NCBI GenBank assembly: GCA_017526905.1
Contig: JAFXQT010000051.1
Location: 1-42,806 of the forward strand
Direction: 5' to 3'
DNA from: Bacteroidaceae bacterium
Lineage (GTDB): Bacteria > Bacteroidota > Bacteroidia > Bacteroidales > Bacteroidaceae
Length of the DNA: 42,806 bases
Part shown: piece by piece, positions 8,000 to 42,604 of the stretch
Layout: each line of letters opens with the position of its first letter
How positions within the stretch are numbered: position 1 is the stretch's first letter
Position numbers and translations under genes: made by a program
The notes under the pieces: model-generated
The model's input: the letters and a program-made list of their open reading frames with translations, nothing else
The model's database searches: none
What the model was told of the DNA's origin: nothing

Positions 8000-8006
8000 T
8001 GGCCTT

Positions 8007-25343: not shown

Positions 25344-25407
25344 GTGCAGGTCGTTGTTTGGGTGTAAAAACCGTGCGAAGTTGGTTCCGCACGCACATTT
25401 GTGAGCG

Positions 25408-25439
25408 CAAAAGTAAAGTAATTTGTCAATATTCCCAAA
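25408..25439 (-). promoter_or_regulatory. rfbA promoter
   Basis: On the minus strand TTTG (25436-25439), 20 bases, then TACTTTTG (25408-25415), a full consensus match. The leader to the rfbA start is about 58 bases. Confidence 0.85.
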
Positions 25440-25489
25440 CTTTATACACTTTTTGTGCTTTTGGCGCGGGTGGCTTGCGAAAAAATGAC

Positions 25490-25497
25490 TACTTTTG
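25490..25497 (+). promoter_or_regulatory. -7 box of the autokinase gene
   Basis: TACTTTTG is an exact TAnnTTTG 27 bases before the start at 25525. The only TTTG upstream (25460-25463) is 26 bases away, too far for a standard -33 box, so the promoter may need an activator or be weak. Confidence 0.5.
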
Positions 25498-25524
25498 CCC
25501 CGCATTTATAATCAATCATTACGT

Positions 25525-27975
25525 ATGGCAGAATACATTGATAACGAAAAACTGGAAGAGGAAGGCTCATCCGGCTTTGATTTTAGAAAGATTTGGTCCT
25601 TGGTAGTCCTGAACTGGTACTGGTTCATCCTGTCCATGTTGGCCTGCTCGGCCGTGGCCTATCTCTACCTACGCTATCAGCGCCCGGTATATCAGGCAGC
25701 AATGAAAATCCTGATCAAGGACGATGTCAGCAAGAACAGCCGCTATGGCAGCAATGCCCTGGCGCTGGATCAGCTGGGCATCATGAGTAACAGTAACGGT
25801 TTTGACAACGAGCTGGAAATCCTCCGCTCTGCAACGGTGGCCACACGTGCCGTCAAGTCGCTCAAACTCTATGTCACCTACTCCATGGAGGGGCGCGTCA
25901 CCACTGCCGACCTCTACAAGAACTCGCCCGTACTGGTCGATCTGGAAGAGAACCGTCAGGACCAGCTCAAGGTGCCCGTCGTGATTGAGATGAACAAGAA
26001 GGGCAAGGGCATACAGGCCGACATCCATCTGCCTGCTGCCTCGAGCGAGCCCGTGGTGCAGAGCCACACCATCACCAAGTTCCCTGCAACCATCGATACC
26101 AATGTGGGTAAGATCATGTTCTCCCGCAATCCCGGTACGCAGATAGGCGCTCGCACCCTCACGGCCACCATCTACCCGCCGGTGATGATGGGCCGTGCCT
26201 ATGCCAAGCGTCTGAGTGCTCAGGCCACATCGAAGTTTACCAGCGTGGCACTGGTTTCGATCCTTGACACTAACAAGGAGCGCGCCACCGACTATCTGGC
26301 CGAGCTCATCCGTGCCTACAACCTGGATGCCAACCAGGACAAGAACGAGGTGGCCAAGAAGACAGAGGAGTTCATCAAGGAACGTATCGAAGTGATTCGT
26401 GGCGAACTGGACGATACCGAAGGCAGCCTGGAGGATTTCAAACGCAGCAACCAGTTGGTCAACCTGCCCACCGACGCATCGCAGGCACTCTCGCAATCCA
26501 CCCAGTTCCAAAAGGATCAGGTGGCCATGCAGACACAGATGTCGCTGGTGCACTCGCTCATGGATTATGTGAACAACCCCGCCAACAGCATGGAAGTGAT
26601 TCCGGCCAACCTGGGCATCACCGATGCCGCCGTGAACCACATGGTGGCACAGTATAACGAGGCCGTGCTGAACCGTAACCGCCTCATCCGCAATGCGTCG
26701 GAAGATGCACCGCGTGTGCTTCAGGTCACCGACGAGGTGCAGGCCCTGTGGGTAGCCATCCAGCAGCAGTTGAACAGCATTTACCGCAACCTGCAGATGC
26801 AGAAGTCCAGCATCGACCATCAGTACGCCCTCTTCTCGGGCAAGGTGAGCAGCACCCCTACCCAGGAGCGCGTGCTCAACAACATCGGTCGTCAGCAGGA
26901 AATCAAGTCGGGCTTGTACCTGATGCTGCTGCAGAAGCGCGAAGAGAACTATATCTCGCTGGCATCAACGGCTGCCAAGGCTCGTGTCATCGACGAGCCG
27001 CAGACCGGAGGCAAGGTCAGCCCGAAGAGCTCCATCATCATGTTGGCTGCCGTGATTATCGGTCTGTTGCTGCCGCTTCTCTTCTTCTATCTGGACGAAC
27101 TGCTCAGATTCCGTATCGAAGGCCGTGAGGATGTTGAGAAACTCACCAAAATACCCATCCTGGCTGATATCCCCCTCACCAAGGACTTGGCCACCGGCGA
27201 GCGTGCCATCGTGGTGAAGGAGAACACCAATAATATGATGGAGGAGGCCTTCCGTGGCTTGCGAACCAACCTGCGCTTCGTCATGGGGCCGGGCGAGAAG
27301 GTGCTCTGCTGCACCAGTACCATCCCCTCGGAGGGTAAGACCTTCGTGGCCACCAACCTGGCCATGTCGCTGGCACTGTTGGGCAAGAAGGTGCTCATCG
27401 TGGGTCTGGACGTGCGCAAACCCCGGTTGGTCAAACTGTTCGGTCTGCCTTCCAGCCATCAGGGCATCACGACCTACTTGGCCGGTGAGACTGCCGACTT
27501 CGACCTGCTGGAGAAGCAGATTGTCCACGGCGTGCTCAACCCGAACCTCGATGTGATGCCTGCCGGCGTGATTCCGCCTAACCCGGGCGAACTCATCACG
27601 CGCGACCTGTTGGACAAGGGTATTGAGTACCTGAAGGGAACATACGACTATATTATCCTGGATACGCCTCCTATCGGCCTGGTGAGCGATACGTTCGAAC
27701 TGGCCCGTCTGTGCGACGTCACCTTCTTCGTGGTGCGTTCGGAATACTCCACCCGTGGCGACTTCGAGCAGATCAACCGCGTGCAGGCCGAAGGCAAACT
27801 GCCTAAGATGAACCTCGTGCTGAATGGTGTGGACCTGACCAAGAAGAAGTACGGCTTCTACTATGGCTATGGCAAGTACGGCACCTATAGCCGCTATGGC
27901 ACCTACTATGGCCGCTACGGCCACTATGGCACCTACGGCAATTATGGCGACCGCTCGCAGCATGTGGAGAAGTAG
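25525..27975 (+). CDS. Wzc-type polysaccharide co-polymerase and tyrosine autokinase
   Basis: The start at 25525 gives MAEYIDNEKLEEEG; ten codons upstream overlap the promoter. The 816-residue product has a Wzz-type N-terminal part with a membrane helix near 31-50, a periplasmic part with long helices (250-470), a second helix at 503-522, and a cytoplasmic BY-kinase domain. That domain shows Walker A STIPSEGKT (598-606), A' VLIVGLDVRKP (623-633) and Walker B YIILDTPP (709-716). The tail has 13 tyrosines in 33 residues (776-808), many as YG repeats, the expected autophosphorylation cluster. It would control polymer length and export by cycles of phosphorylation. No phosphatase gene of the Wzb type is seen. 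It converges with a Wza-like gene at 28536, its likely partner. Confidence 0.95.
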   Translation: MAEYIDNEKLEEEGSSGFDFRKIWSLVVLNWYWFILSMLACSAVAYLYLRYQRPVYQAAMKILIKDDVSKNSRYGSNALALDQLGIMSNSNGFDNELEILRSATVATRAVKSLKLYVTYSMEGRVTTADLYKNSPVLVDLEENRQDQLKVPVVIEMNKKGKGIQADIHLPAASSEPVVQSHTITKFPATIDTNVGKIMFSRNPGTQIGARTLTATIYPPVMMGRAYAKRLSAQATSKFTSVALVSILDTNKERATDYLAELIRAYNLDANQDKNEVAKKTEEFIKERIEVIRGELDDTEGSLEDFKRSNQLVNLPTDASQALSQSTQFQKDQVAMQTQMSLVHSLMDYVNNPANSMEVIPANLGITDAAVNHMVAQYNEAVLNRNRLIRNASEDAPRVLQVTDEVQALWVAIQQQLNSIYRNLQMQKSSIDHQYALFSGKVSSTPTQERVLNNIGRQQEIKSGLYLMLLQKREENYISLASTAAKARVIDEPQTGGKVSPKSSIIMLAAVIIGLLLPLLFFYLDELLRFRIEGREDVEKLTKIPILADIPLTKDLATGERAIVVKENTNNMMEEAFRGLRTNLRFVMGPGEKVLCCTSTIPSEGKTFVATNLAMSLALLGKKVLIVGLDVRKPRLVKLFGLPSSHQGITTYLAGETADFDLLEKQIVHGVLNPNLDVMPAGVIPPNPGELITRDLLDKGIEYLKGTYDYIILDTPPIGLVSDTFELARLCDVTFFVVRSEYSTRGDFEQINRVQAEGKLPKMNLVLNGVDLTKKKYGFYYGYGKYGTYSRYGTYYGRYGHYGTYGNYGDRSQHVEK

Positions 27976-28535: not shown

Positions 28536-29351
28536 TTACTTTGTCAATGCAATGCCCAGTGCCACGATGCTGGAAATAACGCTGATGATGCTGGCACCTG
28601 CGCTGAGGAAGGTGGTGAAGGCCGAACTGCGCACGTTTTGGGCCTTGTTGGGCTGTATGTAGATCATGTCGTTCTGCTGCACGTAGAAGGCGGGGCTGTC
28701 AAAGATGTCGGCCTGTGTCAGATCCAGGTCATACTTCTTGCGCATGCCGTTCTCCTCGCGGATCAGCGTCACTTTCTGGCGCAGTGAAGCGTCGGCCACG
28801 TCGGCACATTGTGACAGCACGTCGAGCACCGAGTTGCGCTCGGAGGTGAGGTTGACCACCTTCGGTGCCTTGGCAGCGCCCAGCACAGTCACGCGGGCAT
28901 TGAGCAGGCGCACCGTCACTTGCGGGTTCTTGATTTTCTGCACGTTCACAATCTGTGCTTCGACGGCTTTGGCACATTCCTCGCAGGTCAAGCCGCTCAC
29001 CTTCACCGTTCCGACACCGGGCAGACGCACAAAGCCCTCGTTCGTCACCGTGTAGCCGTAGGCATTGCTCATGCCGCCGCTGGCGCTGCTCATCGAGCTT
29101 GAGCTTGAGCCGCCGCCGCCACCTATCAGCACGTCATTGCTGAACACGTCCAGCAGGGTGGGATCCTCGCAGGTCACCTTGATAAGCAGCTGGTCGGCCG
29201 GTTTGATGTGCATCTCGTAGCGCTGGGTGATTTCCCGATCTTCCTGGAACATCTCGTCGGCGCCCTGGAAATAGATGATTTTCTTATTGCTGACGCATGA
29301 GCAGAGGGCTATGGTCAGGGCCATGCAGGCCAACAGTGACAGTTTCTTCAT
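28536..29351 (-). CDS. Wza-like polysaccharide export lipoprotein
   Basis: The start at 29351 gives MKKLSLLACMALTIALCSCVSNKK; the open frame upstream is promoter sequence. The 271-residue product is a lipoprotein by its lipobox (ALCSC, Cys about 19). A polysaccharide export domain follows (HIKPADQLLIKV...), with a Gly/Ser-rich insert (about 76-93), then SLBB-like parts (VTVLGAAKAPKVVNL) and a C-terminal hydrophobic helix after residue 240. It is shorter than Wza but typical for Bacteroidota. It would form the outer-membrane exit for a polymer handled by the convergent autokinase at 25525. It has a full-consensus promoter. Confidence 0.92.
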   Translation of the reverse strand: MKKLSLLACMALTIALCSCVSNKKIIYFQGADEMFQEDREITQRYEMHIKPADQLLIKVTCEDPTLLDVFSNDVLIGGGGGSSSSSMSSASGGMSNAYGYTVTNEGFVRLPGVGTVKVSGLTCEECAKAVEAQIVNVQKIKNPQVTVRLLNARVTVLGAAKAPKVVNLTSERNSVLDVLSQCADVADASLRQKVTLIREENGMRKKYDLDLTQADIFDSPAFYVQQNDMIYIQPNKAQNVRSSAFTTFLSAGASIISVISSIVALGIALTK

Positions 29352-29376
29352 TTTTCCTTTATTGATTATTCCTGCG

Positions 29377-29408: not shown

Positions 29409-29512
29409 CGAACGACGGAAAAACACTTGGTCGATTGCCGAAAAACCGTTTTTGCCTTCGGGCACAGCTGCTGCGAATGATGTATTGGGGTGAGATTCAA
29501 TCCCCAATATGT

Positions 29513-29546
29513 AAAAAGCCCCTGCGGCAGATGTACCGCAGGGGCT
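29513..29546 (-). terminator. Terminator of the first giant secreted-protein gene
   Basis: An 11-bp perfect stem (AGCCCCTGCGG at 29517-29527 with 29536-29546) is followed on the minus strand by TTTTTAC. A second hairpin, TATTGGGG/CCCCAATA, lies just beyond (29483-29509). Together they separate this gene from the Wza-like promoter. Confidence 0.85.
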
Positions 29547-29570
29547 TTGTATCAGTGCTTGAAAATAATC

Positions 29571-32500
29571 TTACTTCACCACGACCTTCTTGCCATTGAT
29601 GATGTAGATGCCCTTCTGAGCCTTCTGCACCTTCTGGCCAGCCAGGTTGTAGATGCTCTGGATGCCCGTGTTGGCAGCGTCGATGCGCTGAACGGCATCG
29701 GGAGCGTTCTCAGGACCTGCGCCGAGGTAGGAGAGCGTCCAGTTGCTGAAGATGGTCCAGTCGCCACTGATGTGGGCATACTTGCTCAGACCGATGGTCA
29801 GCACGCCGTCCTCGCCCACTTCGACGTTGAGCGTGTTGGTGTAGGAACCGTCGAAGTTGAGGTAGGTCTCGGCAGAAACCATCATGTTGGGGATGTAGCG
29901 AGTGATGTCCTGTCCCAGTTCAACGGTCACCTCGTCCGATGCAGCAATAGCAGTTTCCTGTGCGCCAGCAAAGATGTCCTTCACGGCAACACTCATTGAG
30001 TCAACGCCGATGGCATACATGGTAGCGTTGTAAGCCATAGTGTCAGCAACGAAAGCAGCTGCAGCTGGTTCGGGGAAGCCGGCACGATAGTAGGCATCAA
30101 CGGTCACGGTGTAGTAGCCGGGCAGCAGGCCCTTGATGGTCTGGTAGTGGTTGAAGTTCTTGTCGTAGAATTCAGCCTCGTTGTAGCTCAGGCCAGGAGT
30201 AGTTGTTGTGCCGTCCTCGTTGAAGGAGCTCCAGCCGTTGGCCGAGTTGGCAGCGGTCTTGGGATCCACGTAGGTGGGGTTGTAGATGACAGCAGTTACG
30301 TCGATGGGAGCATCCTTAGAAGCATCCACGGCGCCGCTCATCAGGTACGGAATCCAGTCGGCATCGATCTTGTCGATGAGTGCCTGGAGTGCATCGTTGT
30401 CGGCCAGTTCCTCAGCCATCGAGTACGGGTCAATCCAGGTTTCCAGCAGCTGGTCGTATTCCTCCATGGTCGGGACGAGGGCCTCAAGCTTGCCAATCTG
30501 GTCGTAGTAGAACTCAACGCTCGAAGCCAGCTCTTCACCCAGCTCGTTGCCCTTCTTCACGTAGTCGATAGCCTCGGTCACTTCCGAGATCATAGCCATG
30601 ATGGCGTCGCCATCGGCATCATCGATAGCCTTCTGAGAGCGTGCGGGCAGGGTCTCGGCCATTTCAGTAGCCTTGGCAGTGAGGAATGCATTGTCGGCAG
30701 TGGTGACTGCTTCAAACTCTTCCAGCTTCTTGTTGAGCTGCTCCTCATATACGCTTACATCCTGTCCGATGTACTTCAGTGCGAAGTTGTCAAAGATAAC
30801 CCAGTCGTTGGTTGATTCGCAGTGGATACCGATGGTCAGGTCGCCTTCCTTGTCCAGAATCACCTTCACGTGGTTGGTGTAGTAGAGTTCGCCCGTGTTG
30901 GGATTGGTCTCCTGGAACCAGTAGTAAGCGCCAGTCATACCGTTGCACTGGTACAGGGTGTTGCCCTCTTCGTCGGTGCTGATACCGCGGCTGTTGTCAT
31001 AGTTGCCGTCGCCCAGCTGGGTCATGCCGTCGATGTACTTGCGGTTCTCCTCGGTCACTTTCTGCTCCACGTCGTTGTCCAGGTCGATGAGATAGTCCTT
31101 GGTGATACCGCCATAGAGCCATGTGCCTTCGGTGTCGGAGGCATTGTCGTGGCGGGCAAAGCCTTGCAGCGTCACGTCATAGACGCCGGCGGGCATGCTC
31201 TTCAGGGTCTGGCTCAGGTCGAATGCCTTGTGGTAAGTCTCGATGTTGTGTGTGGCGGCACGCAGTTCCGTCATCGAACCGCTATTGATTTTCCAGCCAG
31301 TGGGGTTGGCAGTGGTACCGGTGGTGAAGCCAGGATTGGCCAAGAGGAAGGTGAGGTCGGTTCCGGGCTTGATTTCGCCGGCCAGGTTATCCATCATGGT
31401 GTTGTAAGCCACGCCAGCCAGCGTGTCGATCATTTCGGCAGTGGCGGTGCCTTCTTCGTAGGCAGCACTCCACTCGTCGTTCAGCTCGTCAACGGCGCCG
31501 GATGCTGCCTCAAAGCCTGCATCGTAAGCCTTGCTGGAGAGTTCGTTGGCTTCGTCAATGTAGTTGCGAAGTTTCACATAGTCCTTGATAGACTGTTGTG
31601 CAGCAGCCAATGCGGCTTTCAGCTTGTCGCTGGCAGCGGTGCACTCTTCGGCGGTGGCGCCAGCGTTAGCGGCTACATCCTGAGCCTCTTCCAGCGCAGT
31701 CATAAATGCGGCGAGAACCTCCTTGTTGGCATTGTCGGCATCGGAAATCTCCGAATCCTGGGCCTGTTTTACCATATCCTTCAGGATCAGCATCTCGGGC
31801 AGTTCTTCAGTCTTACCATAGTAGTAGATGCGGAAGTTGTCGGCTGCAATCCAGTTGGCGGTGGTGCTCTCTGTCTTCAGACCGAAGGTGAGTGCCTTCA
31901 CGCCCTCAGGACATACGAAGGTGATGCTGAAGTGTTCGGGGTTGTTGTTGTTGGTTGCCACTTCTTGGAACACTTCGTTGCCGGTATCGGGAGCAATGAA
32001 CAGTTTCACGCCTGTAGCAGGATTCTCAAACTTGCCCCACTGATGCACTGCAATCACGTCGCAGGAAAGCTTGTACATACCTGAAGGCAGACCATAGACG
32101 GTCTGAGAGAGCTCGGCGTCGCCAATCTTCCACGGGTCATTGTTGTCCTTCCAAGCTTCGATGAATTTGCTCAGGTAAGCAGGGCTGCCATCATCGTCGG
32201 TGGCAGAACCGGCAGCGGTCAGCGTGGTGCCGTTGTTGGTGTAGCTGGCACCCTGGTAGCCAATGTTGGTAGCCTTGCCACTGAAGGTGTTGGTCCAACC
32301 GTTGATGTTGCCCTGATCGAAGTTAGCGTTGACCAGGCAGATGCCGGTTACTTCCTGAGGATCGTCGGGTGTGCCGTTGAACTGGCCAGCAAAGATAGCT
32401 GCGTTAACGGCGGCGTTCAGCGAGTTCTTTGCTGCTTCGAGATCCTGAACAGTAGCTGCGCTATTGTTGTAGATGGCTGCGGCTTCGGCAACGTCTTGGT

Positions 32501-33302
32501 CGATGTTCACCTCGGCAATCTCGGCATCCTCCAGTGCCTTGGTGTAGGCATTGTACAGGGCCACGCGGGCGTTGTAGATGGCCATTGCGTTGTTAAATGC
32601 CTCATCGTTGTTGTGAGCTCTGACGGTCTCGGCATAGGCCTTGATGTTCTCAGCCTCGCTTATAGGAACGAAAGCCCATTCCACCCAAGGTGCAACAGTG
32701 CTCGACTCGCCGGCGATGTTGAGGTCGGTCCAGGTGTAAACGGTGTTGGCCGATGCGTAGTTGTTGGCATCCACGCCGAAGAAGATGTTTTCCTCGGCAT
32801 AGTCGCTGGTCATGCGGTACACGTTGGTCTTACCTTCCACGGGAGTGAGTACCCACAGGCCATCTGAGGCAAAACGGCTGTCCCAACCATCGCACCATGC
32901 GCCGTTACCTTCGTGCACAAGGTGGAAGGGGTTGTCGGTAGCGCCAACCTTGCTGGTGCCCATGTGGGCAATGTTCCAACCGCCCTCGGCTTCGTCCAGC
33001 TGGAAGGGGAGGATGAAGCTGACGTTGGTCTTCAGGTCGATGTTGTCCTGCGTGGAGATGAGCGAATCAAGCGTCACAACGGCACGTGTGCCCCAGTCCA
33101 TACCGGCACCGAGGAACATACCTGCCTCAGTGTTGAGGATGTAATACTGTCCGCCACTTTCAGGAGCAACGGTGGCTCCTGTCCAGCTCGGTGCTACTGG
33201 CCGTTCTGGACGTACGGGCTCGGTCCAGTCCTGTGCCATGGCACTTGTGCTCAGAAACGCTGCGCCCATAAGCGCAATCACAGAGAGTAACTTGTGTTTC
33301 AT
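29571..33302 (-). CDS. Giant secreted modular protein, paralogue 1
   Basis: The 1243-residue product has a signal peptide (1-23). An N-terminal trefoil-like region spans about 45-215 (GGQYYILNTEAGMFLGAG). Three beta-sandwich modules lie near 318-497, 648-847 and 998-1195. Each begins around VNANFDQGNINGW, carries a (L/M)P.G.Y.(L/V) core strand and ends around NW(I/V)..DNF.(I/L).Y.G. Helical stretches of 80-150 residues that look like FIVAR-type bundles separate them. The tail IYNLAGQKVQKAQKGIYIINGKK matches the sorting-type tails of secreted Bacteroidales proteins. The modules resemble carbohydrate-binding or galactose-binding folds, with no catalytic signature that I can see. It shares layout with the gene at 37750 and less with 33686. 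A surface or matrix glycan-binding role is inference. Confidence 0.85.
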   Translation of the reverse strand: MKHKLLSVIALMGAAFLSTSAMAQDWTEPVRPERPVAPSWTGATVAPESGGQYYILNTEAGMFLGAGMDWGTRAVVTLDSLISTQDNIDLKTNVSFILPFQLDEAEGGWNIAHMGTSKVGATDNPFHLVHEGNGAWCDGWDSRFASDGLWVLTPVEGKTNVYRMTSDYAEENIFFGVDANNYASANTVYTWTDLNIAGESSTVAPWVEWAFVPISEAENIKAYAETVRAHNNDEAFNNAMAIYNARVALYNAYTKALEDAEIAEVNIDQDVAEAAAIYNNSAATVQDLEAAKNSLNAAVNAAIFAGQFNGTPDDPQEVTGICLVNANFDQGNINGWTNTFSGKATNIGYQGASYTNNGTTLTAAGSATDDDGSPAYLSKFIEAWKDNNDPWKIGDAELSQTVYGLPSGMYKLSCDVIAVHQWGKFENPATGVKLFIAPDTGNEVFQEVATNNNNPEHFSITFVCPEGVKALTFGLKTESTTANWIAADNFRIYYYGKTEELPEMLILKDMVKQAQDSEISDADNANKEVLAAFMTALEEAQDVAANAGATAEECTAASDKLKAALAAAQQSIKDYVKLRNYIDEANELSSKAYDAGFEAASGAVDELNDEWSAAYEEGTATAEMIDTLAGVAYNTMMDNLAGEIKPGTDLTFLLANPGFTTGTTANPTGWKINSGSMTELRAATHNIETYHKAFDLSQTLKSMPAGVYDVTLQGFARHDNASDTEGTWLYGGITKDYLIDLDNDVEQKVTEENRKYIDGMTQLGDGNYDNSRGISTDEEGNTLYQCNGMTGAYYWFQETNPNTGELYYTNHVKVILDKEGDLTIGIHCESTNDWVIFDNFALKYIGQDVSVYEEQLNKKLEEFEAVTTADNAFLTAKATEMAETLPARSQKAIDDADGDAIMAMISEVTEAIDYVKKGNELGEELASSVEFYYDQIGKLEALVPTMEEYDQLLETWIDPYSMAEELADNDALQALIDKIDADWIPYLMSGAVDASKDAPIDVTAVIYNPTYVDPKTAANSANGWSSFNEDGTTTTPGLSYNEAEFYDKNFNHYQTIKGLLPGYYTVTVDAYYRAGFPEPAAAAFVADTMAYNATMYAIGVDSMSVAVKDIFAGAQETAIAASDEVTVELGQDITRYIPNMMVSAETYLNFDGSYTNTLNVEVGEDGVLTIGLSKYAHISGDWTIFSNWTLSYLGAGPENAPDAVQRIDAANTGIQSIYNLAGQKVQKAQKGIYIINGKKVVVK

Positions 33303-33490
33303 AAAGCAGTTAATTAGTAAGTGATAAAAAATTAGTTAGTAATAAGTAGTCTCGTTGTTTTGTAAGCGGGCTTGATGTGCGATGGTTATGTGCGCCGGTA
33401 AGGGCTGCCTGCGCTCGTGTGTATCACTTCTTTTGCCACCTCGTTTTGGCCCTATGGGACAATGTCGGTGGTGCCGAAACCATCCTTTGG
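33303..33490 (-). other. Long untranslated leader of paralogue 1
   Basis: No gene is seen here. The last 60 bases before the start are A+T-rich with repeated TTAGT/TAGTTAG motifs on the plus strand. Similar motifs precede the other two giant genes. A structured leader is possible but I see no known riboswitch. Confidence 0.4.
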
Positions 33491-33525
33491 CCGATATTTC
33501 GTGGCAAATATACACTTAATATCGG
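33491..33525 (-). promoter_or_regulatory. Promoter -7 box inside an operator-like dyad
   Basis: The minus strand carries TATATTTG (33505-33512), a TAnnTTTG match, with no TTTG -33 box. A perfect 8-bp dyad, CCGATATT (33491-33498) and AATATCGG (33518-33525), flanks the box evenly. This is a classic place for a repressor or regulator. The leader to the start at 33302 would be about 190 bases, unusually long; I found no nearer box. Confidence 0.55.
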
Positions 33526-33560
33526 AAGGGCGAAGGTTCCTTAACAGTTAAATGCAGTGC

Positions 33561-33576
33561 GTTAAGATTTTTTAAC
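33561..33576 (-). promoter_or_regulatory. GTTAA-N6-TTAAC element before paralogue 1
   Basis: GTTAAGATTTTTTAAC on the plus strand is a 16-bp dyad with 5-bp arms. Its near edge is 48 bases from the -7 box at 33505-33512. The same dyad at the same distance precedes the gene at 37750, and one arm is kept before 33686. Confidence 0.6.
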
Positions 33577-33616
33577 CAAAAGCGACATGGCGGACGTGTC
33601 AGCAGGGTTTGGCAAT

Positions 33617-33654
33617 TAAAAAAAGACCCCCTGCGGTTGCTGCACCGCAGGGGG
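33617..33654 (-). terminator. Terminator of the second giant gene
   Basis: A perfect 10-bp stem (CCCCCTGCGG at 33627-33636 with 33645-33654), loop of 8, followed on the minus strand by TCTTTTTTTAA. Strong. Confidence 0.9.
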
Positions 33655-33685
33655 GTATTGTCAGTTTTGTGACGTTGTTTCAATC

Positions 33686-36600
33686 TCACCGGATCACCAC
33701 CTTGCGGTTGCCGATGATGTTCACGCCCTTCTGTGCGCGGCCCAGACGCTGTCCGGCCAGGTTGTAGATGGCGTTGTCGGCATTGGTGATGGTGCGGTCG
33801 GCCTGGAGGCTTTCAACAGCCACGGGAGGTTCGGTGCCGAGGTACTCCAGCTGGAAGTTGTTGAACGGAGCCCAGTCGCCGGCATGGCTTACGTTCTGGA
33901 ACAGACCCAGTTCGATGGCGCCCATGCTCTCCTCATACTGGAAGATGAGGTAGTTGTAGTAGCGGCCTTGCTCGGCGAATGTGGCCAGTTCTGCACGGTT
34001 GTTGGGTGCGTAGAGTGTGTCGGTTTCGTTGATACCGTACTTCTGGGTGCTGATGAATTCGGGCACTTCGTTCATGAAGGCACCCTTGCTGGTGTCGTGC
34101 CAGTCCACGATAACGGCGTTGTCGTTGCCGGCATAGAGGAACATGTTCTGCTCGGTGGCGATACCGTTCGTCAGGCTATCCACAACGGCGGCTGTGCCGA
34201 TGGGGCGGTACAGGGCGTTGCAGGACAGGCGGTAGTAACCTTCCTTGAGCTGCACTTTCTGGTAGATTTTCCAGGCAGAGGGTACGTTCCAGAACTCCAG
34301 GAATCCGGCATCCCAAGTGCCGCGGTTGCCGCTGGTAGCCTCGGTCTCGATGGTCCATCCGGCAGCGTGGTTTGATTCGTCGGCAAAGTCGGCGTTCTCC
34401 AGCAGTTCGGTCACGTTGACGGGTTCGCTGCCGCTGGCGCTTTCCATGCCGCTCTGTGAGAGCACGTAGGCCACCCAGGCGTCCTTCAGGCGCTGCACGG
34501 CTTCGATGAGCTGTTCGTTGGTCTCCGACTCTTCGGCCAGGGGTGCCACTTCGTCGAGCACAGACTGCATGATTTCCATGTCGGCGTCGATCTCGGAGAG
34601 TGCCAGGCGGTTGTCATACTTCATCACCTCCTCGTTCACGCGCTGAGCCAGTGCGGGGCTCTTCTGAGCGTAGGCGATGGCTTCCTGCAGCTGAGCGATG
34701 GCAGCGATCTTGGTTTCGACAGCATCGGCTTCCTGAGCTTTCAGGCCGTTGTCGATGGCGTTCTCCAGGTCGGAGCCAGCCTTGGCAACGCCGCCGTACT
34801 GGGCGTTCTCAAAGATATTGGTAGCGGTGGCAATGAGCACGTCGATCTGTCCGTCCAGGGCATCCTCCATGCCTTCGGCACCCTTGTACACTACGGTAAA
34901 GGCACCCCAGCAGGTCCATTCGTCGCCTTCGAGCTCAACGCCCTTGATGCCGATGGTCAGGTTGCCGTCCTCCACCAGTGCGGTGGTCACGGTGTTCTTG
35001 GCTTCCTCCTGGTCGTAGAAGAGCCAGTGGGCATTGTTGTTGCTGTTGGGCACCCACAGCGAGTCGCCCTCGGCGGTCACGATGCCGGCGGTGTGGTTCT
35101 CGTCGGGAGCGCTCACGGCGTAGAGGGCCACGTTGTTCAGCAGCGTCTGGTTCTGGTTGGCATAGAGGTAGGCCATGCCGGTGACGGCTTCAGCCTCAAA
35201 CTGGGTGTAGTTGCTTTGGTTGGCAGCAGCGCGGTAGAAGCCGTTTGTGCTGATCTCGTACACACCCTTAGGCATGTCGGCCAGGGTCTGATACACGTTG
35301 AAGTTGTTCTGGTTCCACACCTCGGCGGTCTGCACGCGGCTCAGGAAAGCGGTGGTGCCGGTTTCGTTCTGCCAGCCGGTAACGGTGTTGTTGGCATAGT
35401 CGATGTTGTTGAACAGGGCGCTGATGTCCACGTTCTGCTTGCCACCTTCGGCAGCAGCCTTGGCCAGGGCTTCCTTCACGGCGCTGACGATGATGGCGTC
35501 AAATCCGGAGATGGCCTCGTTGATCTGAGCGGTGGTGTAGGTGCCTTCTTCGTAGCCGGCCTCGTAGGTTTCCAGCATATCCTCCAGCTGTTCCACCAGG
35601 GTGGTGAAGGAGCTGTTGTCCACATACTTGTCGATGGTTGCCGTCACCTTCTCGCTGAAGAAGTTGTAGAAGGTGTTGTAGGCATTGCGGCTGGCGCTTG
35701 CCTCGGATGCGATGTTGTTCAGCGCGCTGGCGGCGTTGGTATTGGCCTCGTCGTCCTTGCTGTTGGAGCTTACGAGCTCTTCGGCCACCTGGTAGGCCTC
35801 TTCAACCTTGGCGCGAATGGCCTCCTCGAACTGTCCGTCGTTGAAGGCGGTGAACTGCTCGGCATTGCGCACGGCGGCCTGGAGAGCCAGGAGCGACGGG
35901 TTGACGCCAGTGCCGATGTAGGTGAGCGAGATACCGTCGATGAAGAAGTGAGGCATGCTGGCCGAACCGGTGTTGGTGGCTGTGTAGCCCATGGAGAAGT
36001 TACCGCTGGTCTCATCAATCAGTTCGAACTCGATGGTCTCGTGTGTCCACTTGCCCACGGGGAAGGTCTTGTTGGTGCAGAGATACTCGGTGCCGTCGTC
36101 GGCAATGAAGCCGATCAGGTTCTTCTCGATGGCGCTGGCACCGCCGCTGTTGTAGTAGCTGATGCTGAGGATGTACTTACCGGCGGGGATGGTCACGTAC
36201 TGCTTGTACTGGATGGTTCCGGTCCAGCAGGTAACCATGCCGAGCACCTTACCCTCGGTGGCGCCGTCGGACATGGTGGTGGGGGGCAGGAATTCCTTAC
36301 CTCCGAGGAAGCAGTCGCTGCCCACTTCATACACGCCGCTGGCGCGTCCGTTGGTGGCGCCGCTGGTACCGGCAAACCAGATGTTGTCGCTCTCGTTGTT
36401 CACGGTCCATCCGGTGACGTGTTGTGCGCCGTAGCGCTTGGTGCCGCCTTCGCCAACGCCCCAGCCGCCGGTGTTGCTGCCGCCGGTCTGGCCGTCCATA
36501 TCCTTGGAGTAGGTGTAGATTTCGCTATCCACAGCATCGTCCTTGGTAAAGTGGGGGTTCTGGATGAAGAAGTCGGAGAAGTCGGTGGTGCCGCTCTCGT

Positions 36601-37492
36601 TCAGCTTCTTCTGATTTTCGATGGCTGCCAGCACTTGCTCCACGGTGACGTTGGGATTGTCGTACACGGCCTGCGCCTCGCTGGTATCCACGCCGTAGGC
36701 CTCGCCAATCTGGATTACCTCCAAGAGGCCCACTTTGGCTGCGTCCACCTCGGCTTTGTGGAGAGCGTCGGCATCGCCTTCCTCAATAATCACCTGGTCG
36801 ATGAAGAGGTGAGGCATGGCGCCTGAGCCGCCGGGGCCGGTGTAGCCCAGGCTGATCACGCCGCTGGTGGCCTGCTCCAGCAGGAACTCGATGGTGTCGT
36901 TCTTCCACACCTCGACGTCCCATGTCTTTTTGGTGGAGAGATAGCTGGTGCCGTCGTCGGCCACGAAGCCGCACAGGTTGGCACTCACTTCGGTGGTGCC
37001 TGCGCCATTGTAGATGGGCAGGATGATGCGGTAGGCACCTGCGGGCAGGGTCACTGCCTGGGTGTACTGAGTCTTGGCGCCCCACACGCTGACGATGCCC
37101 AGGGCATTGCCTGTGGCGTCACCGTTGGGGTTGGTCATGGGTGCGAGATAGGTGTTGCTGCCCAGCCACACGGTCTCGTCGGCATTGATGGCGAATACGC
37201 CGGCAGCGCGGGCATTCAGTCCGTCGGTGCGTGCGTTGCTGCTGCTTTCGCTCACAAGCGTGTTGTCCGTGAGGTTGGATGCTTCCCAGTCCTCTACGGC
37301 CTGCATGCCGAACAGCGTGGTGCCGTTGTTGGCCATGTCGTAGTCGTAGGTGCAGATGCCTGCTTGCACGGGCTGGCCTGCACTGAAGTCGGCATTCTTC
37401 AGGAACTTGGCAGTGAGGTTGTCGCCCACTGCAGCCTGCATGCCGAACGTTACGGTCATCATTGCGATGACAGAGAGTAAACGTTGCTTCAT
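33686..37492 (-). CDS. Giant secreted modular protein, paralogue 2
   Basis: The 1268-residue product has a signal peptide (1-20). Unlike its neighbours it lacks the trefoil-like N-terminus and begins with two related beta-sandwich modules (about 26-238 and 302-527). These share FVADDGT/FIADDGTEYL, SLGYTG/SMGYTA and MPH(L/F)FID patterns. A long helical region (528-690), a third module (688-872), another helical region and a fourth module (1024-1219) follow. The last module ends EYLGTEPPVAVESLQAD, identical in the gene at 37750. The tail is IYNLAGQRLGRAQKGVNIIGNRK. It is rich in Asn, Asp, Glu and Ala, with few cysteines. I see no enzyme motif. Its promoter has both boxes, and a terminator follows. 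Confidence 0.85.
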   Translation of the reverse strand: MKQRLLSVIAMMTVTFGMQAAVGDNLTAKFLKNADFSAGQPVQAGICTYDYDMANNGTTLFGMQAVEDWEASNLTDNTLVSESSSNARTDGLNARAAGVFAINADETVWLGSNTYLAPMTNPNGDATGNALGIVSVWGAKTQYTQAVTLPAGAYRIILPIYNGAGTTEVSANLCGFVADDGTSYLSTKKTWDVEVWKNDTIEFLLEQATSGVISLGYTGPGGSGAMPHLFIDQVIIEEGDADALHKAEVDAAKVGLLEVIQIGEAYGVDTSEAQAVYDNPNVTVEQVLAAIENQKKLNESGTTDFSDFFIQNPHFTKDDAVDSEIYTYSKDMDGQTGGSNTGGWGVGEGGTKRYGAQHVTGWTVNNESDNIWFAGTSGATNGRASGVYEVGSDCFLGGKEFLPPTTMSDGATEGKVLGMVTCWTGTIQYKQYVTIPAGKYILSISYYNSGGASAIEKNLIGFIADDGTEYLCTNKTFPVGKWTHETIEFELIDETSGNFSMGYTATNTGSASMPHFFIDGISLTYIGTGVNPSLLALQAAVRNAEQFTAFNDGQFEEAIRAKVEEAYQVAEELVSSNSKDDEANTNAASALNNIASEASASRNAYNTFYNFFSEKVTATIDKYVDNSSFTTLVEQLEDMLETYEAGYEEGTYTTAQINEAISGFDAIIVSAVKEALAKAAAEGGKQNVDISALFNNIDYANNTVTGWQNETGTTAFLSRVQTAEVWNQNNFNVYQTLADMPKGVYEISTNGFYRAAANQSNYTQFEAEAVTGMAYLYANQNQTLLNNVALYAVSAPDENHTAGIVTAEGDSLWVPNSNNNAHWLFYDQEEAKNTVTTALVEDGNLTIGIKGVELEGDEWTCWGAFTVVYKGAEGMEDALDGQIDVLIATATNIFENAQYGGVAKAGSDLENAIDNGLKAQEADAVETKIAAIAQLQEAIAYAQKSPALAQRVNEEVMKYDNRLALSEIDADMEIMQSVLDEVAPLAEESETNEQLIEAVQRLKDAWVAYVLSQSGMESASGSEPVNVTELLENADFADESNHAAGWTIETEATSGNRGTWDAGFLEFWNVPSAWKIYQKVQLKEGYYRLSCNALYRPIGTAAVVDSLTNGIATEQNMFLYAGNDNAVIVDWHDTSKGAFMNEVPEFISTQKYGINETDTLYAPNNRAELATFAEQGRYYNYLIFQYEESMGAIELGLFQNVSHAGDWAPFNNFQLEYLGTEPPVAVESLQADRTITNADNAIYNLAGQRLGRAQKGVNIIGNRKVVIR

Positions 37493-37563
37493 GTTGTGTT
37501 AGTTAACAGTTAGTGGTTAGTGAATATGTTTTTCTTCTTGTCCGTATAAGCCGATTCTGGCTG

Positions 37564-37594
37564 CAAAATTATCAATTATTGCCCATTGTGCAAA
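37564..37594 (-). promoter_or_regulatory. Promoter of paralogue 2
   Basis: On the minus strand TTTG (37591-37594), 19 bases, then TAATTTTG (37564-37571), a full match. The leader is about 65 bases. Confidence 0.8.
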
Positions 37595-37619
37595 CAAATC
37601 GTGCTTTTTTTTGCATAGG

Positions 37620-37635
37620 GCACCTGAATCTTAAC
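37620..37635 (-). promoter_or_regulatory. Degenerate GTTAA element before paralogue 2
   Basis: The minus strand reads GTTAAGATTCAGGTGC. The upstream GTTAA arm is intact and lies at exactly the same distance from the -7 box as in the other two giant genes; the downstream arm has decayed. This promoter is also the only one of the three with a good -33 box. Confidence 0.45.
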
Positions 37636-37684
37636 ACTCTCTGCCGGTGTTGTGCCTATGCCTGGGTGGGGGCGTTGGGGCATG

Positions 37685-37719
37685 AAAAAGCCCCGCGAAC
37701 CGTGTGGCTCGCAGGGCTT
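37685..37719 (-). terminator. Terminator of the third giant gene
   Basis: AAGCCC, GCGA and CC blocks (37688-37701) pair with GG, TCGC and GGGCTT (37706-37719) with two mismatches. On the minus strand TTTTTCATG follows. Confidence 0.8.
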
Positions 37720-37749
37720 GGCGTTACCTATATATATAATAAGGTGTGT

Positions 37750-40700
37750 TTACTTTACGAGGTACTTCTTGCCACCCACGATGTAGATGCCCTTCTGCAT
37801 CTTGCTCACCTTCTGGCCAGCCAGGTTGTAGATGGCGGCGTTGGCGATGCGCTTGTCGGCGTCGGCCTGGAGGCTTTCGACAGCCACGGGAGGTTCTGTG
37901 CCGAGGTATTCGAGGCAGAAGTTGTCCATGGGCACCCAGTCGTAGGCGATGGTAGCGTTCTTGCGCACACCCAGGCTGATGGCACCCTGGCCTTCCTTGT
38001 ACTCGAAGATGACGTAGTTCAGATAGCGTCCGGCTTCGATGAAGGTTTCAAATGCGGCGCGGCTGTTGGGTGCGCAGAAGGCCTGGTCGGTACCCAAGGT
38101 GTAGTCGGTGCCGTTGAGGGTGGGGTAGTCGGACTGGTTTTCCTCCAGCGTGCCGGCCAGAGCGCCGTCCTTCAAGTTGGTCCACTGCATAATCTTGGCC
38201 GTTTCGGCACCGGCATAGAGGTAAGCCTCGTTGGTCAGCAGGGTGTCGGTGGTTTCAAGTGCATTGAGCACACCGATTTCGTTGTCGCTGTTGCCTGCGC
38301 GGTAGAAGGCGTTCACGGAGAGGCGATAGAAGCCGGGACGCAGCATGGCGATATCCTGGTGCATGTCGAAGTTGGTGCTGTTCCAGAATTCGACGCATCC
38401 GTCGGCATCCGTGCCGTTCTTGGTTTCGCACTCGGTGACCCATCCATTGCGTGCATCGTCAAGGTTGGCGTTGACCATCAGCATGGACACGTCAACGGGG
38501 TTTTCGCCGGTGGCGTTGTCCAGCTCGTCCCAACCGAGGATGTACTTCATGAACTCGTCGGGCAGGGCGTTGATCCAGGCCTCGATCTGTTCGTTGCTCT
38601 CGAACTCTTCAGCTTCGATGGCGGAGTTGATTTCCTCCACCATGACATCGAATGCTTCGTAGTTGCTCACGAAGTCGGCATCCAGTGCGCTCTGCTTGTC
38701 CTCGTAGGTGCTGAGTGTGGTCTGCAGGTCCTTGACCAGTTGTGTGCTCTGTTCGGCGGCCTTGATGGCATTGCTCATCTCGTCGATGGCAGCAATCTTG
38801 GTGTTGGCATCGTCGGTAGCCAGAGCCTTTTCGCCTGTGGTCAGTGCCTTTTCGATGGCTTGTTCTGTGGCACTCACGCCGTGAGCCTCGGCCATGGCCA
38901 GTTGCTCTGTGAGTGCTTCAATCTGTGCGTCGTAGTCGGATGCTGTAGCAGCGTTGTAGTAGATGTGGAACTCTTCCCAGACAGTCCACTGGTTGCCCAT
39001 CAGGCCGTCGCCGCTCTTCACGCCGAAGCGCAGTGTGCCGTCGGACGAGAGGACGGTGCTGACGGTGTTGAGCACCTGCTCGGCATAGGGCTCGTGAGTG
39101 AAAATGTAGTGAGCATTCTGCTGGTTGTTGGGCTGGTACATTTTGTTGCCGTCGGCTGCGTCGAACGTGCCGTTGAAGCCTTCGATGGAGTCGGTGCGGC
39201 ACAGGTTGGCCACGTTGTACATGAGGGTCTGCGAGTTGCCGGCGTAGAGGTAAGAGAAGCCGCCAGTGGCCTCTGCCACGTAGTTGTCATAGTTGACGGC
39301 GTTGTCGGCCTCGCGGTAGAAGCCCTTCACGGTGATGGTGTACTTACCCTTCGGCAGTTGCAGTTCGCGATAGACGTCGAAGTTCGTGTCGTTCCACACC
39401 TCGGCGGTGCCGAATTGAGTCTTGAAGTTCTCAGTCTTGGTGGTATTCTGCCAGAGGCTGTCGGGCAGGTTGGGGTATTTCACAGCGCTGCCGCTATAAA
39501 CGTAGCTGAGCTGGTCGAACAGAGGTGTGATGTCAATCGGTTCGTTCAGTGGCTCGCCGGAAGCAACGGCATCGTCAAATGCCTTCTGAACGGCGTTCTT
39601 AAGCAGCGGCTGGAAGTCCTCGATGGCTTTCTCGATTTGCTCGTTGGTATAGGTACCTTCCTCCAGGGCGGGCTCGTAGGTTTCCAGCAGAGCTTCGATG
39701 GCCTCGACATAGTTCTCGTAGCCAGGCTTTTCAAAATAGGTCTCGTTGTCAGCGTGCATCTTCTCCACCAGGTCGGCGAACTTCTTGTAGGCGGCAACAG
39801 AGGCCTTCATTTCGGTCAGTACGTCGTTCAGCTTGGTGTAGGCAGCCTGGTACTCGTCCGACTTCTCCTTTTCGGGAGTGGTCGAAAGCAGGTCTTCGGC
39901 CTCCTCAAGTGCGCTTGCGCAGGCGTCCTTCACGGTAGCCTGTGCATATTCGGCATTGATGTAGATGTCGCTGGCTTCAGCCGTGAGGGCACGCAGGGCG
40001 GTGTAGGTGGCAGGCGTCTGCACCTCGCCGATGGCAAAGAGCTGGAAGTTATCGGCAGCCACCCAGTTGGCGTTGGTGGCGGACGTCATCAGACCGATGG
40101 TCATGACATCGGCACCGTCGTAGTCGAACTCGAAGGTGAAGTGCTGGGGCTTGCCGTTGAGGGTGTAGAGCGACTCCTCGCTGTGGATGGTGTAGCTGCC
40201 GTTGTTGTAGTAGAGATACACACCTGTTACGATGGTGTTCTCATCGCCCTGCCAGCTGGCAATGGCGTCACACTCCAAGCGGTAGCGGCCTGCGGGCAGG
40301 CCCATGATGCTCTGGCTCAGGCCGCCGTCGCCCAGTGCGCCGGTGCCGGTGGGATACCAAGCCTCGATGAATCGGTTCAAGCTGACGCCGGTTTCCTCGG
40401 TAGTGTAAACCTGATTGGACTGATAGCCGAGGTTCTCGCCCATCTTTGCCACTGTCCAGCCGTCAACATTGCCCTGCGTGAAGTCGGGGTTGACCAGCAC
40501 GAAGGCGGTAATCTCGATGGGGTTGTCCTCCGAGCTCTCGCCGATGCTGGCCAGCACGGCAGCGCGGTTCACGGCGGGTGCCAGTGCCTCGTAGGCGGCA
40601 TTGAGCTCCTCCAGCGTTGCGCTGGCGTTGGTATAGACGGCAGCTGCTTCGGTGTAGGCCACGCCATACTTCACAGCCTCGTTCAGCTTGTTGTACAGTG

Positions 40701-41412
40701 CCAGTTGGGCCTGGTACAGCTCGTAGGCCTTGTTGTATTCGACAACGGCCTGGTTGTAGGCATCCACGGTGGATTGGTAGTCGGTGCTGAGGTCAACGCT
40801 CTCCACAGGGATGAAAGCCCACTCGATGTTGGGATCTTCGGCGGTGCAGGTGAACTTCACGTAGGCACCGGCACCGGTGCTGCCTGCATACTCTTCGGCT
40901 GCATTGTCGAATTTTCCCTGCTCGACCGATGACTGAATGTAGTAGTAGCCGTTGGCGTTCTTGGTGAATGAGAACCAGTCGCCGCCTTGGTTGTTCATGT
41001 CCACGTAGCCGTCACCTCCCGAGCGGAACAGGTGGTTGCGGCCTGCGGGCGGGTTGTAGCCGTTATCGCGGCCATGGTCGCCGTAGAACTTGTCGTTGGC
41101 ATCGTTGGTGCGTTGCATCACCCATGCATTCTCAGTGCCCTCCTGGAGCACAGTGGTGATTTGCATGTAGGGTGTGGCATTGTCAGATAGGCTAATCTGG
41201 GTGGCCCATACGTTGGCACCCACCAGGAACTGGCCTTCGCCTACGTTCATCACGTAGTAGTTGCCTTGGTCTTCCACGTCGGCTGCATTCTCCAGGAAGG
41301 CCCTTGCGGGGCTTTCAGGACGAACGGGCTCTGTGGGTGCGGTCCATGACTGCGCGAAGGCACCTGCGGTGAGGGCGAGCGCAGCACATACAGAGAGTAA
41401 ACGCTGTTTCAT
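37750..41412 (-). CDS. Giant secreted modular protein, paralogue 3
   Basis: The 1220-residue product has a signal peptide (1-20, then QSW). An N-terminal trefoil-like region spans about 47-205 (GNYYVMNVGEGQFLVGAN) and matches the layout of the gene at 29571, including the preceding EPVRPE-type segment. Beta-sandwich modules lie near 298-463, 626-822 and 972-1173, separated by helical regions. The first begins VNPDFTQGNVDGW and ends NWVAADNFQLFAIG. The tail is IYNLAGQKVSKMQKGIYIVGGKK. With its neighbours it forms an array of three tandem genes on one strand, each with its own promoter and terminator. Function is unknown; glycan binding at the surface is inferred from the modules and the location by an export locus. 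Confidence 0.85.
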   Translation of the reverse strand: MKQRLLSVCAALALTAGAFAQSWTAPTEPVRPESPARAFLENAADVEDQGNYYVMNVGEGQFLVGANVWATQISLSDNATPYMQITTVLQEGTENAWVMQRTNDANDKFYGDHGRDNGYNPPAGRNHLFRSGGDGYVDMNNQGGDWFSFTKNANGYYYIQSSVEQGKFDNAAEEYAGSTGAGAYVKFTCTAEDPNIEWAFIPVESVDLSTDYQSTVDAYNQAVVEYNKAYELYQAQLALYNKLNEAVKYGVAYTEAAAVYTNASATLEELNAAYEALAPAVNRAAVLASIGESSEDNPIEITAFVLVNPDFTQGNVDGWTVAKMGENLGYQSNQVYTTEETGVSLNRFIEAWYPTGTGALGDGGLSQSIMGLPAGRYRLECDAIASWQGDENTIVTGVYLYYNNGSYTIHSEESLYTLNGKPQHFTFEFDYDGADVMTIGLMTSATNANWVAADNFQLFAIGEVQTPATYTALRALTAEASDIYINAEYAQATVKDACASALEEAEDLLSTTPEKEKSDEYQAAYTKLNDVLTEMKASVAAYKKFADLVEKMHADNETYFEKPGYENYVEAIEALLETYEPALEEGTYTNEQIEKAIEDFQPLLKNAVQKAFDDAVASGEPLNEPIDITPLFDQLSYVYSGSAVKYPNLPDSLWQNTTKTENFKTQFGTAEVWNDTNFDVYRELQLPKGKYTITVKGFYREADNAVNYDNYVAEATGGFSYLYAGNSQTLMYNVANLCRTDSIEGFNGTFDAADGNKMYQPNNQQNAHYIFTHEPYAEQVLNTVSTVLSSDGTLRFGVKSGDGLMGNQWTVWEEFHIYYNAATASDYDAQIEALTEQLAMAEAHGVSATEQAIEKALTTGEKALATDDANTKIAAIDEMSNAIKAAEQSTQLVKDLQTTLSTYEDKQSALDADFVSNYEAFDVMVEEINSAIEAEEFESNEQIEAWINALPDEFMKYILGWDELDNATGENPVDVSMLMVNANLDDARNGWVTECETKNGTDADGCVEFWNSTNFDMHQDIAMLRPGFYRLSVNAFYRAGNSDNEIGVLNALETTDTLLTNEAYLYAGAETAKIMQWTNLKDGALAGTLEENQSDYPTLNGTDYTLGTDQAFCAPNSRAAFETFIEAGRYLNYVIFEYKEGQGAISLGVRKNATIAYDWVPMDNFCLEYLGTEPPVAVESLQADADKRIANAAIYNLAGQKVSKMQKGIYIVGGKKYLVK

Positions 41413-41499: not shown

Positions 41500-41507
41500 C
41501 AAATGTA
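41500..41507 (-). promoter_or_regulatory. -7 box of paralogue 3
   Basis: The minus strand reads TACATTTG, a TAnnTTTG match 88 bases before the start. There is no TTTG -33 box at 19-21 bp, as in paralogue 1, which fits a promoter that depends on an activator. Confidence 0.5.
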
Positions 41508-41571: not shown

Positions 41572-41603
41572 GAAATGCGCACGCTTGGGCGGGTGCTTTT
41601 CCG

Positions 41604-41611
41604 TACCTTTG
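41604..41611 (+). promoter_or_regulatory. -7 box of the HAD gene
   Basis: TACCTTTG is an exact TAnnTTTG 24 bases before the start at 41636. No clear TTTG lies at the right distance upstream. Confidence 0.5.
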
Positions 41612-41635
41612 CCGGCAAAACAAAAGTTTTGCACC

Positions 41636-42058
41636 ATGACCATTGCAGTTGACTTCGACGGAACCATCGTCACACACCGTTACCCCGACATAGGCGAGGA
41701 GATACCCTTTGCCACCGACACGCTGAAAATGCTCATCGCCGATCATCACCGACTCATCCTTTGGAGCGTGCGCGAAGGCGAACTCTTGGACGCAGCCGTG
41801 GAGTGGTGCCGCAAGCGCGGTGTGGAATTCTATGCCGTGAACCGCGATTACCCTGAGGAGGACGTGGAGAAGAACCGCCATTTCTCGCGCAAGCTGAAGG
41901 CAGATATGTTCATCGACGACCGCAACCTGGGCGGACTGCCCGACTGGGGCACTATCTACACCATGATTCACGACCACAAGACGATGGAGGAGGTGCTTAT
42001 GGAGGAACTGAATCCCCAGCAGGTGGTGAAGCGCAAGAAGAAGTGGTGGCAGATTTAG
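41636..42058 (+). CDS. Small HAD-superfamily phosphatase-like protein
   Basis: The start at 41636 gives MTIAVDFDGTIVTH; the longer frame upstream includes the promoter box. The 140-residue product has HAD motif I DFDGT (Asp6 nucleophile, Asp8), a motif II-like serine (ILWSVRE), a lysine (RKLKAD) and motif IV MFIDDRN. There is almost no cap, so it is a small, capless member that could act on a large substrate or a sugar phosphate. The C-terminus is basic (VKRKKKWWQI). Similar small HAD proteins are common in Bacteroides and Prevotella; their substrates are not known to me. It is a single gene, divergent from the giant-protein array. Confidence 0.85.
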   Translation: MTIAVDFDGTIVTHRYPDIGEEIPFATDTLKMLIADHHRLILWSVREGELLDAAVEWCRKRGVEFYAVNRDYPEEDVEKNRHFSRKLKADMFIDDRNLGGLPDWGTIYTMIHDHKTMEEVLMEELNPQQVVKRKKKWWQI

Positions 42059-42453: not shown

Positions 42454-42604
42454 TGGACGGATGGACAGTTGGACAGTTTTTTGAGCGAATCGAAGTTTTT
42501 TGTTTAGGAGAGTATAGTATATAATATATATATTATATACTATACTCTCCTAAGTCGTGATAGGCACTGCCCTAATATTTTCTGTCCATCTGTCCATCTG
42601 TCCA
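42454..42604. repeat. 151-bp nested palindrome
   Basis: The core (42504-42553) is a 50-bp perfect palindrome with no loop: TTAGGAG at one end, CTCCTAA at the other and an alternating A/T centre. Outer 23-bp arms (42454-42476 and 42582-42604), made of TGGACAGA-type 8-bp units, are inverted copies matching at 21 of 23 positions. Both pairs share the same centre (42528.5 and 42529). The spacers between inner and outer arms (27 and 28 bases) are not complementary. It codes for nothing visible. Confidence 0.9.

Follow-up and report, generated by a model that had tools for sequence, protein, structure and literature searches.

Three giant modular proteins encoded beside a polysaccharide export locus in a Bacteroidaceae genome: candidate glycan-binding surface proteins with modules that seem to move as cassettes

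Among rumen Bacteroidota, 'Candidatus Paraporphyromonas polyenzymogenes' exports multimodular carbohydrate-active enzymes through the type IX secretion system (T9SS); many of them carry carbohydrate-binding modules (CBMs), and a hypothetical domain of the exported cellulases was shown to bind Avicel (PMC5831590). The surface adhesins RemA and SprB of Flavobacterium johnsoniae are also exported by a T9SS (PMC11205867, PMC9127263). The lectin domain of RemA binds sugars, reportedly rhamnose and galactose, and the protein raises aggregation and is thought to interact with polysaccharides (PMC11205867). CBMs are mostly familiar as components of enzymes (PMC13003330). The present analysis concerns three tandem giant genes, P1, P2 and P3, in a stretch of 42,806 nucleotides (nt) from a Bacteroidaceae bacterium (contig JAFXQT010000051.1 of assembly GCA_017526905.1), referred to as the window. 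It appears likely that they specify large non-catalytic glycan-binding surface proteins, encoded at a site that gains and loses such giants and composed of modules that are exchanged as cassettes.

The exported cellulases of the rumen organism appear, by analogy, to be the closest published case. In both cases large multimodular proteins of ruminant Bacteroidota are concerned, with a C-terminal signal that points to the type IX route. The published proteins contain glycoside hydrolase domains, whereas none is found over cut-off in P1-P3, and their tails were detected with TIGR04183, a model not reached by the tails of P1-P3. RemA and SprB work in gliding, while the sandwich modules of the giants are CBM4/22-like; the giants are likened to them as predicted T9SS-exported surface proteins. 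Among the titles and abstract openings listed from the openly licensed PubMed Central literature, no description of this giant-protein family was found. The assembly containing the window comprises 2.8 Mb on 104 contigs and is 79% complete. Two relatives in a public collection are metagenome-assembled genomes of Bacteroidaceae, one of them from goat reticulum.

Modules, folds and module reuse

The preliminary description of the window, made from the sequence alone, had proposed three tandem giant genes, and long open reading frames (ORFs) are indeed present on the minus strand:

29571..33302, minus strand: P1, 1243 amino acids (aa); signal-like stretch, T, helices, A, helices, B, helices, C, tail
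33686..37492, minus strand: P2, 1268 aa; N1 and N2 instead of T and A, then helices, B, helices, C, tail
37750..41412, minus strand: P3, 1220 aa; module order as in P1

As judged by eye, each N-terminus resembles a signal peptide. The three proteins are homologous, with values of 37% for P2 and 32% for P1 when P3 was used as tblastn query. Module profiles were built from 38 giants not of the P2 type, and profiles for N1 and N2 from five P2-type proteins, with borders set by us. The sandwiches A, B and C are mutually homologous and constitute one family (hhalign probabilities 99.4, 99.7 and 99.9), and the helical stretches HB and HC are related as well (96.4). The order is T-HA-A-HB-B-HC-C-tail in P1 and P3, and N1-N2-HB-B-HC-C-tail in P2. 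N1 and N2 form a pair (hhalign 100) with 38% identity to each other; N2 is related to A (96.1), N1 less clearly so (66.3). The alternation of beta-sandwich and helical modules and the two extra sandwiches of the middle gene, both proposed before, are therefore confirmed. In P3 the partition covers the whole protein with no stretch left over. Inside the modules, aromatic and acidic positions are conserved across the 38 giants; in P3 the conserved E-x-W positions are E350/W352, E671/W673 and E1008/W1010.

40798..41352, minus strand: P3 module T, residues 21-205; tentatively a trefoil-like N-terminal domain
40015..40536, minus strand: P3 module A, residues 293-466; jelly roll like CBM families 4, 16, 22 and 61
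39547..40014, minus strand: P3 helical stretch HB, residues 467-622
38944..39546, minus strand: P3 module B, residues 623-823; homologous to A
38488..38943, minus strand: P3 helical stretch HC, residues 824-975; homologous to HB
37888..38487, minus strand: P3 module C, residues 976-1175; homologue of A and B, and apparently exchanged as a cassette in relatives
37753..37887, minus strand: P3 C-terminal tail, sorting-signal-like
36758..37432, minus strand: P2 sandwich N1, residues 21-245
35873..36604, minus strand: P2 sandwich N2, residues 297-540; related to A
33689..33838, minus strand: P2 C-terminal tail
29574..29723, minus strand: P1 C-terminal tail

A structural search with an AlphaFold2 (AF2) model of P3, the kind of check proposed at the outset, assigned module A, on the matches listed, to the jelly-roll fold of CBM families 4, 16, 22 and 61. 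A few of the matches span A and B, and T and part of C are without resolved structure in the model. For N2 of P2, CBM4-like matches were also obtained, from a model of low confidence (predicted local distance difference test value 49.7), so that they lend weak support. By sequence, searches for solved relatives with P1 and P2 gave no match below E 0.8; P3 alone was not searched. DUF5013 (PF16405), a family without stated function, matches P2 at 37.2 bits (cut-off 28.5), with the best stretch in module C, and P3 at 24.9 bits, just under the cut-off; P1 does not match. Since module C is homologous to A, a CBM-like fold is suggested for DUF5013, which would provide this family with a likely fold and job.

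As already noted in the preliminary description, no enzyme motif is apparent: neither Pfam nor NCBIfam revealed an enzyme family over its curated cut-off in P1-P3. Matches below cut-off, such as an exonuclease VII subunit in P1 (13.5 against 71 bits), were given no weight. The trefoil-like N-terminus ascribed to P1 and P3 fared less well. Of 34 N-terminal domains, 16 are hit by RicinB_lectin_2 (PF14200) at E<=1, with 1.4e-4 as the lowest value, which is weakly in favour of it, but P3's own domain is not among them. A profile search of the PDB with this domain returned ten sequences, every one of them a Fyn, Yes or Blk kinase (lowest E 7.5e-4), and was taken as chance. Cry insecticidal proteins occupied the top rows of a Foldseek search with the whole P3 model (E down to 4.9e-14); with template modelling scores of 0.10-0.12 and root mean square deviations of 21-23 over more than 900 columns, this likeness was read as a fortuitous succession of helical and sandwich elements. 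One helical stretch of P1 resembles FIVAR-type spacers (PF07554) by analogy only, the match being under the cut-off (16 against 29.2 bits).

Related modules occur elsewhere in the genome. A tblastn search with P3 gave 27 matching places, distributed over 16 contigs, and in some of them the match is to the tail alone. Stretches from 12 of the 15 non-window contigs were scanned by comparing their larger ORFs to the module profiles, a procedure yielding examples rather than a census. A module match was found in 15 larger ORFs, 14 of which were scanned with Pfam. Module A is present on a glycoside hydrolase family 30 (GH30) protein, on a CotH-LTD protein and on a DUF6055 protein, and module C is found on an alpha-L-arabinofuranosidase. 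On L149, an A-type module overlaps CBM_4_9 at 25.6 bits, close to the cut-off of 25.9. Several other module-bearing ORFs are without a named catalytic domain. An unusual pairing was seen in a 1608-aa tail protein (L151:1880-6703, minus strand), in which a tyrosine-phosphatase-like domain is located between T and B/C modules.

Apparent exchange of modules between paralogue classes

Comparison of the giants among genomes revealed differences from module to module. Proteins were labelled P1, P2 or P3 by best score. Between the P3 proteins of genomes G223 and G015, identity amounts to 96-98% across T, HA and A and to 93% for the tail, but falls to 74% in HB, 76% in B, 65% in HC and only 39% in C. 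In module C, P3 of G223 reaches 54% to the window genome, although the two are less alike elsewhere, and C of G015 P3 is 53% identical to C of P2 from the same genome. In a module-C tree, C of G015 P3 groups with three of the five P2-type C modules (100/100), whereas a tree of the last 780 residues places G015 P3 with P3 of G223 and of the window (100/99). P1 gave a comparable picture: module B shows 41% between G015 and G223 but 75% between G223 and the window genome, and for module T the values are 23% and 43%. The module-C tree also sets apart, on a long branch (100/100), six C modules of six genomes; four of them come from P1-type proteins, one from a P2-type and one from a P3-type protein.

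Among 14 pairs in which the second-best module showed at least 60%, nine had one of T, B or C below 45% and at least 30 points below the second-best; these cut-offs are our own, and the pairs are not independent of each other. Module A was never the lowest among the pairs compared. That rapid divergence, and not exchange, accounts for the G015 cases was considered unlikely: outside the modules in question G015 and G223 are each other's closest relatives, yet within them they are less alike than G223 is to the window genome. In the remaining flagged pairs rapid divergence may apply. An assembly chimera could mimic an exchanged module; on the other side, the G015 array lies inside a 242-kb contig, and the six-member C group spans six genomes.

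From these comparisons, modules appear to pass as cassettes from one class of paralogue to another, and the tree conflict fits an exchange of module C. Such movement seems to be what is new here. Binding repertoires would then differ between species, and the exchange of binding modules could change what cells stick to. It is possible, though we put it forward tentatively, that a glycan-recognition repertoire diversifies at one site in this way: in three classes of surface protein the frame, A and the tail would be kept, T, B and C would be swapped between classes and species, and each strain would have its own polysaccharide attachments. Variable adhesin loci of other bacteria follow a comparable logic. 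The apparent module-by-module reshuffling would offer a direct way to ask how related species divide polysaccharides.

The C-terminal tail and the probable route of export

P1, P2 and P3 end in the same kind of C-terminal tail, in agreement with the sorting-type tail described before. At E<=0.01, a profile of this tail detects 81 sites across the window genome, not each of which was verified as a protein end. Because of this number, the tail marks a route and not the giant array, of which it was rejected as a hallmark. Translocon and sortase of such a route are encoded: SprA matches TIGR04189 with 2608.7 bits (cut-off 200; G000:C55), and a PorU-type sortase of the T9SS matches NF033707 with 964.8 bits (cut-off 420). 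In the congeneric genomes G006, G010 and G015, 23-29 tails each were found at E<=1e-4, while the profile had no match in 13 genomes from other families of the order, 12 of which have SprA. P1-P3 are therefore probably, as far as can be read from sequence, cargo of type IX secretion via a local tail variant.

Three results weigh against this interpretation of route and binding. TIGR04183 was compared to eight tails, three from the window, four from related giants and one from an unrelated enzyme in L028; P1-P3 do not reach it, and only P3 matches at all, with 13.2 bits against a cut-off of 23. SprA was not detected in G006, G010 and G015, genomes which are 73-88% complete. Finally, CBM_4_9 (PF02018), whose fold module A resembles and which the homologue on L149 nearly attains, has no match in P1-P3 themselves at E<=1 in Pfam. 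In the window genome, TIGR04183 matches 30 places at E<=1, ten of them over cut-off, and P1-P3 are not included; five coincide with places of the tail profile, all under cut-off. At E<=1 the model also matches in 13 of 14 control genomes. TIGR04183 mostly misses this tail variant, and cargo counts based on it may be too low here. Within the window, a 1157-aa protein with CotH kinase and RicinB_lectin_2 domains (250-3723, minus strand) has an end matching the tail profile (E 2.3e-5).

According to this model, Sec and then the T9SS would carry P1-P3 out of the cell. Helical bundles would space the CBM-like sandwiches, of which P1 and P3 have three (A to C) and P2 four (N1, N2, B and C), and a trefoil-like N-terminal domain would be added in P1 and P3. 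Together, the modules may confer multivalent polysaccharide binding at the cell surface.

The chromosomal site in related genomes

The giants are flanked by genes of polysaccharide export on one side and by a phosphatase gene on the other:

24441..25505, minus strand: RmlA, glucose-1-phosphate thymidylyltransferase; adjoins a giant in several relatives
25495..27975, plus strand: Wzc-type tyrosine autokinase
28536..29372, minus strand: Poly_export (Wza-type) protein; delimits the site on one side in relatives
41585..42058, plus strand: BT0820-family HAD phosphatase; other border of the site in relatives

This arrangement was searched in 61 congeneric genomes, including the window genome, which were drawn evenly from a larger group and are 61-97% complete. 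At E<=1e-50, P1-like proteins are present in 30 and P3-like proteins in 31 of the 61, so that a family of CBM-like proteins without recognised enzyme domain is found in about half of the sampled genomes of one genus. Across the wider family, P1 matches at E<=1e-60 in 10 of 151 genomes and 4 of 30 genera. A wza orthologue, defined by at least 48% identity to the neighbouring wza, was found in 41 of the 61 genomes, and all 41 places were inspected. In 15 of them (G000, G002, G003, G010, G011, G016, G017, G018, G019, G194, G204, G206, G207, G210, G212) a giant adjoins wza or is one gene, RmlA, away. The remaining 26 are unlinked: in 21, the phosphatase gene directly adjoins wza without a giant, and in five (G013, G022, G214, G222, G223) neither is present, although in G222 the contig ends 0.3 kb away. 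Beside the phosphatase gene, a giant was likewise found in 15 genomes; in G210 another tail gene separates the two. Of these 15 genomes, four (G015, G205, G218, G223) have no wza at that position. The nearest relatives, as measured by the identity of P1-P3, are G015 and G223; in both, P2 is located by the phosphatase gene and the P3-P1 pair elsewhere, and wza is at a third place in G223 and was not found in G015. Other giants are at unrelated loci, for example between RrnaAD (ksgA-type) and lyase genes.

The link to Wza and Wzc from the preliminary description is thus real, but partial, and neither obligatory nor specific, the phosphatase gene being linked as often; obligate coupling to export is ruled out by these counts. 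A separate lineage of wza-linked giants was not apparent either: in a tree label test with 22 near-wza and 6 near-phosphatase-only rows (15 other rows left out), 198 of 500 shuffles were as low. Most simply, the phosphatase gene and wza would be old neighbours, with giants arriving between them and being lost again, so that gain and loss would take place between the BT0820-type phosphatase gene and wza. An origin from phages was rejected, as P3 had no match in a phage collection at 1e-5 (tblastn). Two further tail proteins may be mentioned. One of 1452 aa near wza in G022 (L091:10233-14591, minus strand) has a similar tail and is unrelated to P1-P3 at the score used; another of 719 aa (L100:11518-13677) is located at the site of the giants, which may accept other tail proteins.

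The gene order also bears on an alternative, namely that the giants are matrix proteins holding the cell's own Wza/Wzc-exported polysaccharide at the surface, much like RemA. Giants are near wza in 15 of 41 congeners although they are only about 35-47% identical to those of the window, RmlA is near the site in several genomes, and RemA, with its reported binding of rhamnose and galactose and its effect on aggregation, is a precedent (PMC11205867). We nevertheless consider it unlikely, given the 21 genomes with wza beside the phosphatase gene and no giant, the four with a giant beside that phosphatase gene but no wza at this position, the unlinked P3-P1 pair in the two nearest relatives, the equal number of genomes linked to the phosphatase gene, and modules shared with a GH30 protein and an arabinofuranosidase. 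Since the modules occur on these two enzymes, plant-type glycans from outside are at least as likely a target as the exported glycan. Putative targets would rank as plant-type or other outside glycans, then own exopolysaccharide, then host glycans. Of the surface or matrix role suggested initially, a non-catalytic architecture of glycan-binding type is retained, the export link is partial, and no evidence for host glycans was seen.

Quite improbable, in our view, is a role in surface structure or as decoys, shaped by pressure from phages or the immune system, with sandwiches as spacers, exchange altering the antigen, and glycan binding lost or incidental. The unequal degree to which T, B and C have diverged while A was conserved, and the 27 genome places matched by P3, some by the tail only, would be in line with this, but the conserved aromatic and acidic positions and the reuse on enzymes fit binding better. 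Unrecognised enzymes with a divergent activity in a sandwich or the trefoil module are very improbable, for although cyclases share the jelly-roll fold of A in the structural search and the profile of an ulvan lyase trefoil domain finds 6 of the 34 N-terminal domains (E<=1), no enzyme family exceeds its cut-off and such modules sit elsewhere in the genome beside separate catalytic domains.

Signals for expression of the three genes were also inspected. A promoter and terminator for each gene had been proposed:

29505..29568, minus strand: terminator-like hairpin after P1
33605..33684, minus strand: terminator-like hairpin after P2
37670..37748, minus strand: terminator-like hairpin after P3
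33505..33512, minus strand: TAnnTTTG box upstream of P1
37564..37571, minus strand: TAnnTTTG box upstream of P2, with TTTG upstream
41500..41507, minus strand: TAnnTTTG box upstream of P3

A strong hairpin followed by a T run is located 3' of each gene (folds of -28.8, -28.8 and -30.9 kcal/mol). TAnnTTTG is a Bacteroides promoter motif, and a box lies no more than 210 nt from the ATG in all three cases, against an expectation of 0.09 per 300 nt from the window's own frequency. The TTTG partner at the right spacing upstream is present for P2 only.

Other features of the window are a 1139-aa frame antisense to P3 (37513-40932, plus strand), taken as a by-product of codon use and not as a gene, and a second Poly_export/Wzz-type set (5453-9083, plus strand) of an 848-aa SLBB Poly_export protein and a short Wzz. 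A 412-aa ORF in the glycosyltransferase cluster (9092-10330, plus strand) has no Pfam or NCBIfam match at E<=0.001. Close to the right end of the window, an AT-rich palindrome is visible by eye (42500-42560).

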